Source: Bradyrhizobium sp. B097 (lineage in GTDB: Bacteria > Pseudomonadota > Alphaproteobacteria > Rhizobiales > Xanthobacteraceae). Taken from it: 64,000 nt of DNA. The DNA is taken from NCBI RefSeq assembly GCF_038957035.1, contig NZ_CP152412.1:1484501-1548500 (forward strand), given 5' to 3'. Positions 53,129 through 57,019 of this stretch are shown in pieces; the first letter of the stretch is position 1; every line of letters starts with the position of its first letter. Under the pieces are notes generated by a model that did not search any database, was not told where the DNA came from, and saw nothing but the letters and a program-made list of their open reading frames with translations. Both the position numbers and the translations under genes were made by a program.

Positions 53129-53204
53129 GAGCATGATCTCCGCGCAAACGCGTTCCGCGTTTGTCGCGAGGGAAAACCGCTTCGCACTTTTCCGGATTAT
53201 GTTC
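53129..53204. repeat. Intergenic palindromic repeat, type E (copy 2)
   Basis: TGAGCATGATC at the left and GATTATGTTCT at the right, with inner AACGCG palindromic parts. It ends exactly at the stop codon of the HTH gene on the minus strand. It lies in the 290-bp gap between EamA paralogue 2 and that gene; no other gene is seen there. Confidence 0.72.
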
Positions 53205-53590
53205 TAGCCGGTCTCCGGCGGCGTGGTCTGGCGCTTGACGATCTGCTCGGCGAGCTCGATCAGGATCCGCTTGGTGTCGGGGTCCTTGACGTCGCGGAAC
53301 ACCCGCAGCATGCGCAGCTCGAGCAAGGATTGCAGCGATTCCGACGCCTGGCCGCCTTGTGTCTGCGCTGTGGTGGCGGGCCGGCGATTGAGGATGTCCG
53401 CGGCGATCCCGAGCATTTCGGCGACGGTCGCCAGGCGGCCGGTATCGACTTTGACGGTGCCGTCCACGCCGTTCTTTTGCAGGGAGGCCCCCGCGCACAG
53501 GATCTCGGCGAGATCTGCCTGCGACAGCCCGATTGCGCGCCAGCGCGCCTGCACCAGTTGATCGATCTGGTCGTCCTGCGATGTGCTCAT
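53204..53590 (-). CDS. HTH-domain protein (XRE/cro-like), adjacent to luxR
   Basis: A 128-residue protein with an N-terminal cro/CI-like helix-turn-helix segment (IGLSQADLAEILCAGASLQKNGVDGTVKVDTGRLATVAEMLGI) that is stretched relative to the usual spacing, so it is a degenerate or special XRE protein. The rest is hydrophilic and charged and ends LIELAEQIVKRQ. It lies 338 bp from the luxR stop on the same strand, so it may be part of the quorum-sensing neighbourhood, but co-transcription is not shown. Confidence 0.7.
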   Translation of the reverse strand: MSTSQDDQIDQLVQARWRAIGLSQADLAEILCAGASLQKNGVDGTVKVDTGRLATVAEMLGIAADILNRRPATTAQTQGGQASESLQSLLELRMLRVFRDVKDPDTKRILIELAEQIVKRQTTPPETG

Positions 53591-53928: not shown

Positions 53929-54702
53929 TCACAGGTCGATGATCCCGAGCGCGATGCTCTTCGCCACCCCGTGCGTCTTGTTGGAGGCCTCGAGCTTGCG
54001 CAGCGCCTGCTTGATGAAGCCTTCCACCGTCTCCGGCGAAATGCCGAGGATCTGCGCGGTGTCGGCCACGGTCTTGCCGCGCGCCGCCCAGGCGATCACT
54101 TCCTTCTCCCGTGCCGTGAGCTTGATGGTCTCGGCGGCGTCGGCGGGCTTGAGAATGGTCGGCGCGTTGCGCTGGTCGCGGTTGACGATGTCCATCGCCC
54201 GCTGCACCCAGTAGATCATCAACAGATGCAGTTCATGGCGATGGCAGATGAACAGTTTGTCGAAGTCGCGCGGCTGGTCTTCCCAGAAGAACACCGTCGA
54301 GCTCGAATGCACGGCGCCGAGCCGGTCGCGATAATGGAAAGGTACCACGAAGCCGTCCTTGAATCCGAACTCGCGGGCGGCATCCATCGTCTTGACCTCG
54401 GGCGCCCGCTTGTGTCCGCTTCGCTCCGGCAGCTTCAGGCTGCTCCAGCTGAACGGCGTGTTGGTGCGTCGCGACCGCGCCAGCGCCGGATCGGCATGGA
54501 CGAACTCGTTCTGCACATACGCCCGCTTCCAGGCGTCGGGAAAGGTGCCGACATGATAGGGCAGATCAAGGTCGGGCCGGCCGGCATCGACAAAGGCGAA
54601 GCCCGAGAAGCCGTAGTTCTGGATGACACGGTGCAATGACGAGCTGAGCTCGTCGATGGTGTCCGACGCCTCGATGGTTGAAATCGCGTCTACCAGGCCC
54701 AT
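53929..54702 (-). CDS. LuxR-family quorum-sensing regulator
   Basis: A 257-residue acyl-homoserine-lactone receptor and transcription factor. The ligand-binding half has Trp58, Tyr62, Asp71, Pro72 and Trp86, at positions equivalent to the conserved contacts of TraR. The DNA-binding half is LTAREKEVIAWAARGKTVAD then TAQILGISPETVEGFI (about 195-230). It is divergent from luxI; a 19-bp palindrome lies 9 bp upstream of this start. In Bradyrhizobium, BjaR and BraR act in this way; which it resembles most cannot be told. Probably controls luxI and the P450 operon. Confidence 0.93.
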   Translation of the reverse strand: MGLVDAISTIEASDTIDELSSSLHRVIQNYGFSGFAFVDAGRPDLDLPYHVGTFPDAWKRAYVQNEFVHADPALARSRRTNTPFSWSSLKLPERSGHKRAPEVKTMDAAREFGFKDGFVVPFHYRDRLGAVHSSSTVFFWEDQPRDFDKLFICHRHELHLLMIYWVQRAMDIVNRDQRNAPTILKPADAAETIKLTAREKEVIAWAARGKTVADTAQILGISPETVEGFIKQALRKLEASNKTHGVAKSIALGIIDL

Positions 54703-54710
54703 TGACTAAA

Positions 54711-54729
54711 ACCCCCGGTTTCCGGGGGT
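54711..54729. promoter_or_regulatory. Lux-box-like operator
   Basis: Perfect palindrome ACCCCCGGTTTCCGGGGGT, with 8-bp arms and a 3-base spacer, between luxR and luxI. It is 9 bp from the luxR start and 53 bp from the luxI start. A LuxR target site is the likely role. Confidence 0.72.
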
Positions 54730-54781
54730 ACCACAGTTAACCCCTTTCGTTCCAGATGTTCCGCATTTGGAGGAAAGGATA

Positions 54782-55438
54782 ATGCCGCATTCATTGGACG
54801 GATATCATGCACTCATCACCAGGGAAGAGCTTGATCCGGCGCATGTCGGGGCGATGTTGCGGCTGCGCAAGCGGCTGTTCGTCGACCATTGCGGCTGGCT
54901 TCTGAGCACGACCGGCGACGTCGAACGCGATCAGTTCGACAGCTGGTATACCGAGCACTGCCTGTTGTTCTCAGGCGCCGAGCTGGTCGGCGGCTTCCGG
55001 GCGATCCGCACCGACTATCCCTATCTGACCAAGTCGGTATTCCCGCAGCTTGCAGTGCGCCGCTTTCCGAGCCGCCGCGACGCCTGGGAAATCAGCCGGT
55101 TCGGCGTGCTGCCTGGTGTCGCGAGGTCGTGGACGGCACGCGTGAATTACGCGCTGATGTTCCGCTTCGCCGAGCTGCGCGGGGCCGCCGCGCTCGTGGC
55201 GCTCGCCGACCTTTCCTACGAGCGCTTTCTCACCCGCATGGAGATCCGCACCCGCCGCTACGGCCCGCCGCAGGTGATCGGCAATGATCGCATGGGCCGC
55301 CCGCTGACGGCGCTCGCCGGAGAAATCCCGCTTGGTCTCGCCGACAATCCCGGCCTGACCAAATTCCTCGACCTTGGACGGCAATTGGAGATTCACGATG
55401 CCTCACATGTTCTCGGACGTTCGAGCATTCCAGCGTGA
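54782..55438 (+). CDS. LuxI-family acyl-homoserine-lactone synthase
   Basis: A 218-residue AHL synthase. The conserved LuxI residues are all present with proper spacing: Arg29, Phe33, Trp39, Asp50, Asp53, Arg73, Glu103 and Arg106. GGAGG at 54769-54773 sets the ATG at 54782 as the start. Family members use S-adenosylmethionine with an acyl donor; Bradyrhizobium synthases are known that use branched or aryl acyl groups (BjaI, BraI), so the signal here may be unusual. The gene overlaps the P450 gene by 41 bp, so they are transcribed together. Confidence 0.94.
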   Translation: MPHSLDGYHALITREELDPAHVGAMLRLRKRLFVDHCGWLLSTTGDVERDQFDSWYTEHCLLFSGAELVGGFRAIRTDYPYLTKSVFPQLAVRRFPSRRDAWEISRFGVLPGVARSWTARVNYALMFRFAELRGAAALVALADLSYERFLTRMEIRTRRYGPPQVIGNDRMGRPLTALAGEIPLGLADNPGLTKFLDLGRQLEIHDASHVLGRSSIPA

Positions 55439-56762
55439 CCCGCTGCGTCTGCTGCTGACGCGCGGCAACGAGGCCGAGCTCGGGCTCGTGCCCCTGCGGC
55501 TCGGTCCTGCGCCCGTCTTTCTGGTGAACGATCCCGATCTGCTGCGCCCGATCCTCAAGGCGCCGGAGACCGACATCGGAAAGGGCAAGCTGATCAAGAA
55601 GCTGACGCCGGTGCTCGGCCGCAGCTCGCTGATGCTGAGCGGCGAGGAGCACAAGCGGCGGCGGACGGTGTTGCAGAAGCACATGGCCAAGGGCAGCGTC
55701 GAGAAATTCCTGCCGCATATGTGCGCCGAGATCCGCGCGGTCGGCGCCAGCCTGGCGCGGCTCGGATCGTTCGATCCGCACCATGTCACCGCGATGCTGG
55801 CGCTGCGGACGATCTGCGTCGCGATCTTCGGCTCCCAGGTGATGTCGTCCGGCGACGAGGAAGCGCTGGTTCAGGCCGTCGGCGTGATCGAGGACGATCT
55901 GGCCGAGGAGATGTTCCGCGCGTTGCCGTTCGGTCCGGTGGCTTGGTACCGGCGCCGGCAGAACCGGGTCTGCGCCAAGCTTGCCATGTCGACGGTGGTG
56001 CAACGCCTGCGCCGCAAGGCGGGCTCGAGCAGCGCGCTGCGCGATCTCGAGGCGCTCGGCCTGAGCGATCGCGATCTCGAGGACGAGATCCTGACACTGC
56101 TGCTGGCCGGCCATCACACCACCGGTTCGACGGCGGCGTGGATGTTCTACCAGATGGCCGCCGATCCCGCTTTGATGGACGACATTGCCGACGAGGCGGC
56201 GGAGTGCCTTGGCGACGACGGCGAGCTGCGACTTGACGCGGTGAAGCGCGCCAATCTGAGCGCGACGTTTGTCAAGGAGGTCTGCCGGCTCTATCCCAGC
56301 GCTTGGTGGTTCTCGCGCGAGGTGATGCAGCCGGTGACGATCGGCGGGCGCGACCTCAAGGTCGGCACCTCGCTGTTGATCTGTCCCTGGCAATTGCAGC
56401 GCGATCCCAGGCATTTCGAGGATCCCGACCGCTTCCTGATGACGCGGCGCTACAACACCGACGCCTACATCCCGTTCGGCGCCGGCCCGCGCGCCTGCGC
56501 CGGGATGGGAGTTGCGATGCTCGAGTTGCAATTGCTCGCGCTCGAGATCGCGGCGGCCTATCGCTTCACCGCCGTCAGCCCGAATCCGGCGCCCTGGCCG
56601 AAAGCCTCGGTGACGCTGATTCCGCCGCCGATGACGATCGACATCGAAGTCCGCGAGCTGCCATCGCGCATCCTGCATCTCGGTGAGGAAGCCGAGCGGC
56701 TGCCATACATTTCATCCGCCAGCGCGGCGTCCATCAGCACATTACAATCGGTATCCCAATGA
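55398..56762 (+). CDS. cytochrome P450 in the luxI operon
   Basis: A 454-residue soluble cytochrome P450. The I-helix oxygen motif is AGHHTTGST (237-245), the K-helix ExxR is Glu294 to Arg297, and the heme ligand Cys367 sits in FGAGPRACAGMG (360-371, FxxGxxxCxG form). GGAG at 55387-55390 precedes the ATG at 55398, inside the luxI 3' end. Redox partners (ferredoxin, reductase) are not in the window. The overlap with luxI suggests it oxidises the autoinducer, its acyl precursor, or a metabolite made under quorum control. Function not established. Confidence 0.93.
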   Translation: MPHMFSDVRAFQRDPLRLLLTRGNEAELGLVPLRLGPAPVFLVNDPDLLRPILKAPETDIGKGKLIKKLTPVLGRSSLMLSGEEHKRRRTVLQKHMAKGSVEKFLPHMCAEIRAVGASLARLGSFDPHHVTAMLALRTICVAIFGSQVMSSGDEEALVQAVGVIEDDLAEEMFRALPFGPVAWYRRRQNRVCAKLAMSTVVQRLRRKAGSSSALRDLEALGLSDRDLEDEILTLLLAGHHTTGSTAAWMFYQMAADPALMDDIADEAAECLGDDGELRLDAVKRANLSATFVKEVCRLYPSAWWFSREVMQPVTIGGRDLKVGTSLLICPWQLQRDPRHFEDPDRFLMTRRYNTDAYIPFGAGPRACAGMGVAMLELQLLALEIAAAYRFTAVSPNPAPWPKASVTLIPPPMTIDIEVRELPSRILHLGEEAERLPYISSASAASISTLQSVSQ

Positions 56763-57019
56763 CCACACACATCACGACGGCCAGCATCGGGCAAAGGGCC
56801 ATGGATCAAGTGCAAATGCGCAGCTTGCGCGACGTCATCGCGGTGTTGATCGAGCAGCGCAGCATCGTGACGGCGGCCGGTGCGACCTTCGCCGCACATC
56901 TGCTCGACCTCGCGATCATGCAGCTCAGGCTCAACGTCAACGATATTTCGGCGGAGGAATTGTCCGGCCTGTCCGACTATGTCGGCGCGGAGTTCAACAG
57001 GGACAAGCCCTCGCATTGA
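56759..57019 (+). CDS. small unknown protein, third gene of the luxI-P450 operon
   Basis: An 86-residue protein whose ATG overlaps the P450 stop as ATGA, so it is coupled translationally. It contains two predicted amphipathic helices: RDVIAVLIEQRSIVTAAGATFAAHLLDLAIMQL and NDISAEELSGLSDYVGAEFNRD. No cysteine, no signal peptide and no recognised family. It might be a stability partner of the P450 or a regulator. An internal ATG (MDQVQ, residue 15) is an alternative start. Real-gene status rests on position and length. Confidence 0.68.
   Translation: MTTHITTASIGQRAMDQVQMRSLRDVIAVLIEQRSIVTAAGATFAAHLLDLAIMQLRLNVNDISAEELSGLSDYVGAEFNRDKPSH

Follow-up and report, generated by a model that had tools for sequence, protein, structure and literature searches.

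Most of the diversity of acyl-homoserine lactone (AHL) quorum-sensing signals is put down to which acyl groups the synthase LuxI has at its disposal, and the only linked AHL-modifying gene found in the literature consulted is of the crotonase type (PMC10470506; here and below, statements on papers cited by accession number refer to the excerpts consulted). This gene, which is required for an unusual AHL, belongs to the R1–I1–crotonase circuit of Mesorhizobium japonicum, in which luxR and luxI are accompanied by a third, co-directional enzyme gene beside luxI (PMC10470506). A comparable arrangement is found in Bradyrhizobium sp. B097, within a 64-kb stretch of DNA (the window; positions 1,484,501–1,548,500 of the 9.25-Mb single-contig genome), where luxR and luxI stand together with a cytochrome P450 gene. 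The two loci differ, however. The third enzyme in Mesorhizobium is a member of the crotonase superfamily, its gene lies 8 bp from luxI and the LuxI is of the acyl-CoA type (PMC10470506), whereas in the window the neighbour of luxI is not a crotonase gene but a P450 gene that overlaps luxI, the synthase resembles those using acyl carrier protein (ACP), and P450–LuxI fusions exist in other genomes.

Other described systems share single features with this locus. BjaI/BjaR, which works with isovaleryl-homoserine lactone, is a LuxI/LuxR pair from the same genus, Bradyrhizobium, but its synthase is the poorer match to that of the window, as detailed below. Poly-hydroxylated AHLs have been described in the Rhodobacteraceae strain MOLA 401, where a P450 was proposed, though not tested, as the enzyme responsible (PMC5479921). 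The idea of a P450 adding oxygen to the AHL chain is common to both cases, but the MOLA 401 P450 homologue is reported as present in the genome, with no luxI linkage stated in the excerpt consulted (PMC5479921). In Methylobacterium fujisawaense, as in the window, a gene for a small protein is found in the luxI operon; compared by description only, the MmaP protein of this MmaI–MmaP system differs in being 59 amino acids long, encoded directly after mmaI and able to bind PraR (PMC10790750). Among the titles and abstract openings listed in searches of the open-access literature, with subscription papers mostly outside their reach, none reports a luxI-linked P450 or a P450–LuxI fusion; the closest papers are PMC10470506 and PMC5479921, and PMC11896636, PMC5082802 and PMC9957244 had no bearing on the question. 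The locus is a conserved, probably undescribed variant of LuxI/LuxR signalling.

From the arrangement of the genes and its conservation, we consider it probable that luxR, luxI and the P450 gene make up a three-component AHL quorum-sensing circuit, in which the P450 oxidises the AHL signal or the precursor of its acyl group and LuxR answers the oxidised signal. LuxI would make an AHL, probably from acyl-ACP; the P450 would oxidise the acyl chain ahead of its transfer or, alternatively, the completed AHL, with hydroxylation as the simplest reaction and desaturation or a further oxidation as alternatives, to give a distinct oxidised signal; and LuxR would bind this signal, act at the palindrome at 54711–54729 and raise expression of its own luxI–P450 operon. 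The parts of this scheme that we infer are the action of the P450 on the signal, the type and position of the oxidation, the sequence of the steps and a preference of LuxR for the oxidised form. P450BioI provides an example of a P450 able to work on acyl-ACP. The features of the locus are as follows.

53929–54702, minus strand: luxR-type receptor/regulator gene, 257 amino acids, divergent from luxI (Pfam Autoind_bind and GerE)
54711–54729, no strand: lux-box-like palindrome between luxR and luxI (from the sequence; putative operator)
54782–55438, plus strand: luxI-type AHL synthase gene, 218 amino acids (Pfam Autoind_synth and conserved blocks)
55398–55438, plus strand: overlap between luxI and the P450 gene, out of frame, 41 nt (junction measurement)
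55398–56762, plus strand: cytochrome P450 gene, 454 amino acids (Pfam p450, EVCR and FGAGPRACAG motifs, AlphaFold model)
56109–56120, plus strand: I-helix GHHT motif with His240 (motif comparison with related P450s)
56475–56504, plus strand: haem-binding FGAGPRACAG with Cys367 (motif)
56801–57019, plus strand: small accessory gene, probable 72-amino-acid product, annotatable as 86 amino acids from 56759 (codon periodicity and homologues)

All the elements that the initial annotation had described are borne out at the positions given: the divergent luxR and luxI with a perfect palindrome between them, the P450 gene overlapping luxI by 41 bp and, after it, the open reading frame (ORF) of 86 codons. 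The nearest named locus is that of B. altum, whose P450 and LuxI are 99% and 98% identical, respectively, to those of the window.

The pairing across genomes speaks for this reading. A P450 profile (A1) built from six Bradyrhizobium, Microvirga and Methylocystis sequences had matches at E ≤ 1e-70 in 12 genomes (B097 included) among the 397 from the order, spread over nine genera. luxI adjoins the P450 gene in the same arrangement in 11 of the 12, the twelfth P450 being cut by a contig end, and luxR is present at 10 of these 11 loci, with the contig ending in the other (L032). Within the genus, a P450 match at E ≤ 1e-100 was found in 22 of 175 genomes (again with B097), each with luxR and luxI. 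Relatives of the window LuxI occur at 22 loci of the genome contigs searched; 21 of them, from 19 Bradyrhizobium, Microvirga pudoricolor and Methylocystis rosea, have the P450 gene directly after luxI and a divergent luxR, and the one without a P450 is a Pseudomonas locus with a LuxI of 32% identity. The cassette is rare, and was not seen broken where the DNA is complete. Further afield, the class yielded seven matches besides the window among 385 genomes at E ≤ 1e-50: three linked (L052, L053 and L054, from other orders, with luxR–luxI–P450 kept), one fused and three without luxI in the DNA examined. As a control, no P450 gene was found at any of 21 other luxI loci (L069–L087, L002 and L024), mostly examined over ~1.5 kb on each side. 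A LuxI profile search returned 11 matches at ≤1e-87, all of them cassettes, with the next at 1e-28, but the profile had been built from ten of the 11 genomes and the result is not counted as evidence. The genome sets overlap, so the counts are not additive.

Two Bradyrhizobium genomes (G1133 and G1111; loci L141 and L142) carry a luxR–luxI–P450 cassette of another lineage, with no small gene adjoining. These cassettes group with other families in the P450 tree, which suggests horizontal transfer of the cassette as a unit.

luxI and the P450 gene overlap at all 32 junctions measured (the window, L003–L023 and L026–L035; 20 are from Bradyrhizobium, many nearly identical). The overlap is 41 nt long in 22 cases, 62 nt in eight (L018 and L020 among them, with 41 nt in L019), 44 nt in one and 140 nt in one (L029), and is exactly 41 nt in ten of the 12 junctions from outside Bradyrhizobium. 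The Microvirga and Methylocystis overlaps have MRHWFSDL, FRRD (P450 frame) and ETLVLG (LuxI frame) in common. Such conservation suggests translational coupling of the two genes, which are presumably also co-transcribed.

In one class-level genome (G543) the pairing takes another form: a single open frame of 686 amino acids (L056:799–2859) encodes a P450 followed by a LuxI domain, with a divergent luxR. Searching proteins of similar length with the LuxI part yielded six fusion proteins (P0242–P0247), each of which carries both PF00067 and PF00765, and of which P0242 corresponds to the L056 protein read from a later start; they are 670–686 amino acids long, with the P450 N-terminal and LuxI C-terminal, except for the shorter P0246 (487 amino acids), whose P450 part is reduced. 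Within the family to which the L056 genome belongs, the fusion occurs in two of 17 genomes (L056 counted); the other copy (L176) is 96% identical and has its own unbroken frame. Fusion argues for the P450 and LuxI working along a shared line of substrates.

Phylogenetic trees were built for both enzymes after near-duplicates and fragments had been dropped (12 P450 rows and six LuxI rows), and both were rooted at the midpoint only; P0246 was not in the P450 set, and L036 was left out of the tree yet counted among the 12 of 397 genomes. Unlinked P450s are here those without luxI in ~1.5 kb on each side, and are the best-scoring class- and phylum-level loci (L055, L057, L058 and L094–L121) rather than a random draw. 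In the P450 tree (51 rows), a branch supported at 99/97 sets the 22 luxI-linked rows apart from the 24 unlinked P450s and the five fusion rows, the last of which make up a separate clade (100/100). In the LuxI tree (47 rows) there is a firm 19-row Hyphomicrobiales core (100/99), and the six fusion rows unite in one clade (100/99). The deep branches of the LuxI tree come in the same order as those of the P450 tree (L053 with L054, then L052, then L032, then the rest), and LuxI and P450 distances correlate over 20 cassettes (r = 0.916; none of 5000 permutations as high). Because the fusion P450s form a clade of their own, the pairing probably arose twice, once as an old luxI–P450 cassette inherited as a unit and once as a second, independent fusion.

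The P450 itself has the hallmarks of its family: a Pfam p450 domain (PF00067, 1.1e-51), EVCR as the ExxR motif and FGAGPRACAG with the haem-binding cysteine. Its AlphaFold model (mean predicted local distance difference test score, pLDDT, 84.4) matches P450 folds, but the fold search returned generic P450s only and points to no substrate. P450s usually, though not universally, have an acidic residue before the I-helix threonine; here the position is taken by His240. This GHHT motif is shared by all 23 P450s of the core clade and, among 120 database homologues, by 118; the remaining two, with AGDHTT and AGHHST, likewise have histidine. Outside the core the same position holds glutamate, with GHET in L052, GFET in L053 and L054, GHET in all six fusion rows and GHET in 26 of the 31 unlinked P450s (the motif was not found by pattern in the other five). 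Across these sequences the histidine substitution is a mark of the core P450 clade. CYP51 also has histidine at the I-helix acid position, so His240 does not exclude P450 chemistry. At two loci (L007 and L140) the P450 frame is seemingly shifted after about residue 403, past the haem cysteine, judging only from matches that are split or cut short. B097 has a second P450 (C1:94133), which matches a broad P450 profile.

LuxI carries an AHL synthase domain (Pfam Autoind_synth, PF00765, 1.1e-13), and the residues conserved across its clade, including those that we take to be catalytic, are intact. Against solved structures its profile scores 103 bits with 3p2f (presumably TofI) and 94 with LasI, but 73 with 5w8c and 60 with 6wn0, the low-scoring pair that we take to be BjaI and RpaI. 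On this ordering of profile scores, and on the scores only, an isovaleryl- or aryl-type synthase of the BjaI/RpaI clade was rejected. The alignment runs through the ACP-helix region, further towards the C-terminal end, with 3p2f and LasI alone. Positive charges in this region are kept by ACP-using LuxI clades and not by the BjaI clade, and BjaI prefers isovaleryl-CoA as its substrate (PMC4234381). Given the ACP-region alignment and this charge rule, the window LuxI is probably a user of acyl-ACP and not of the BjaI type. The parallel that the initial annotation drew with isovaleryl and cinnamoyl signals is accordingly not supported, and the genome carries a second, distant luxI with its luxR (C1:5469856–5470326, L002), 32% identical to the window LuxI.

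LuxR combines an AHL-binding and a helix-turn-helix domain (Pfam Autoind_bind, PF03472, 6.8e-23; GerE, PF00196, 7.7e-13). W58, Y62, D71 and W86, at positions that presumably hold the AHL in TraR and LasR, are invariant in nine aligned cassette LuxRs. The palindrome, ACCCCCGG-TTT-CCGGGGGT, is a perfect 8-3-8 repeat lying 52–55 nt upstream of luxI, and is the putative operator for LuxR. Of 20 Bradyrhizobium copies (the window and L003–L021), 14 are perfect and six have mismatches in the arms; by the same script, some of the other genera show inverted repeats of a different sequence at about this position and some show none. A pattern scan of the whole 9.25-Mb genome found no further site at 0 or 1 mismatch and, at 2 mismatches, two sites against one for the backwards control. 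As the scan found no second copy at 0–1 mismatch, the luxI–P450 operon may be the main direct target of LuxR. Beside luxR is a 128-codon ORF (53204–53590, minus strand) that is matched in all 19 Bradyrhizobium loci L003–L021, with no match in L022 or L023, the other two loci compared; its product has a weak helix-turn-helix-type NCBIfam match only (E 0.048).

The small third gene stands apart from these. The ATG of the 86-codon ORF overlaps the P450 stop codon as ATGA in all 20 Bradyrhizobium sequences compared, but codons 1–14 show no codon-position bias (10/12/12 variable columns of 14), in contrast to codons 15–72 (19/12/39 of 58). Most aligned homologues begin at M15 (two, P0144 and P0240, start earlier), the family is ~72 amino acids long with its conserved part from M15, and in the window a purine-rich stretch precedes M15 and not M1. 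The start is probably 56801 (M15) rather than 56759, so that the translational coupling read by the initial annotation into the ATGA is doubtful, even though the overlap itself is present. The protein has no Pfam or NCBIfam family above cut-off. Its model is a three-helix bundle (pLDDT 87.3), for which a fold search gave 64 matches, none at E ≤ 0.001; a sequence search for solved relatives gave a best E of 0.88. The initial annotation had proposed looking in related genomes for all three genes in the same order; luxR, luxI and the P450 gene did prove to be linked, but the small gene, although present in 20 of the 22 cassettes from the genus, had no match in Microvirga, Methylocystis or ten cassettes of other genera (L026–L035). 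At E ≤ 1e-6 a match to the small protein was found in 40 of 175 genomes of the genus, 20 of these being the cassette copy. Ten non-cassette loci, all from Bradyrhizobium (L162–L171), are without luxI or luxR in the DNA examined and have a 72-amino-acid relative of the small protein beside genes for GNAT, isochorismatase and MFS transporter proteins (Pfam on L162 and L166). As the family occurs there without luxI or luxR, and has no match in the other-genus cassettes, a core role for the protein was rejected; judged by its distribution, it is an accessory that one lineage of Bradyrhizobium has and that the circuit can do without. An antirepressor role is a lead only, as is the parallel with MmaP. 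Other short ORFs follow the P450 gene in Microvirga (L022:7928–8215, 95 codons) and Methylocystis (L023:7917–8174, 85 codons), with no match found to the small protein of the window.

Taken together, the cross-family linkage, the conserved overlap and the P450–LuxI fusions lend indirect support to the proposal of the initial annotation that a P450 tied to an AHL synthase makes for an oxidised signal. Several observations weigh against this reading. The overlap shrinks in the distant linked loci (1 nt in L052, uncertain in L053 and 4 nt in L054), and three class-level loci (L055, L057 and L058) showed no luxI within ~1.5 kb (~8 kb on each side for L055). Of 398 genomes from the phylum, 76 have a match to the broader P450 profile at E ≤ 1e-45, and amongst the 30 loci of this profile luxI adjoins only at the window's own and at L093 (from the L053 genome); the wider P450 family is therefore mostly unlinked. 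The control covers 19 of the non-cassette luxI matches as loci, with ~1.5 kb on each side. No linked ferredoxin or reductase gene was seen, though no systematic search was made. The LuxI-tree branch joining all 22 linked synthases is weak (88/45), the correlation of LuxI and P450 distances is expected for any linked pair, and the trees may instead reflect one old luxI–P450 pairing with later losses. Finally, linkage also fits a P450 that makes some other quorum-controlled product.

This last possibility is the best of the alternatives, albeit an unlikely one: the P450 would make a separate metabolite, such as an oxidised fatty acid or a plant-active compound, and its gene would sit in the luxI operon because that operon is the main target of LuxR. 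P450s are common makers of secondary metabolites, the fold matches include P450 BM3 and CYP184A1 with oleic acid, and the lack of a second palindrome at 0–1 mismatch would suit an operon that is the chief LuxR target. A separate metabolite nevertheless leaves unexplained both the fusions and a pairing seen in 11 of the 12 genomes of the order and all 22 of the genus, and a rough gene call of the flanks found no further gene recurring in most families and, beyond same-genus pairs, few scattered matches only.

Less probable again is a P450 that serves as a built-in brake on the signal by inactivating the AHL or turning it over. P450 oxidation of aliphatic AHL chains has been reported (Chowdhary 2007, as cited in PMC5479921), and BM3 mutants crystallised with N-decanoyl-homoserine lactone (9iss and 9isu, by entry titles) are among the fold matches. 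A brake produced in step with the synthase would, however, counter accumulation of the signal, and fusion to the synthase would favour a biosynthetic partner. That the P450 is a chance neighbour, a passenger in the luxI transcript, is hardly credible given the cross-family conservation, the overlap at every one of the 32 junctions measured and the existence of the pairing in a second, fused form, even if the small third gene shows that accessories can join cassettes.

On balance, and from comparative sequence data, we lean towards a broader interpretation, according to which oxidation of the AHL by a dedicated P450 would define a new class of Alphaproteobacterial circuit that evolved twice, as an overlapping gene pair with an I-helix histidine and as a bifunctional P450–LuxI protein, with receptors tuned to the oxidised signal as a private channel. 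Named species of Bradyrhizobium, a genus with many legume partners among its named species, are among the cassette carriers, several in number. If the preferred reading of an oxidised signal is true, these bacteria oxidise the signal itself, and would be predicted to make AHLs that could escape standard reporters and mass-spectrometry libraries. The cassette would then offer a genetic handle on hydroxylated AHLs, which, in the excerpt consulted, are known chemically without a proven enzyme (PMC5479921), and the bifunctional P450–LuxI enzyme would be open to study in vitro.

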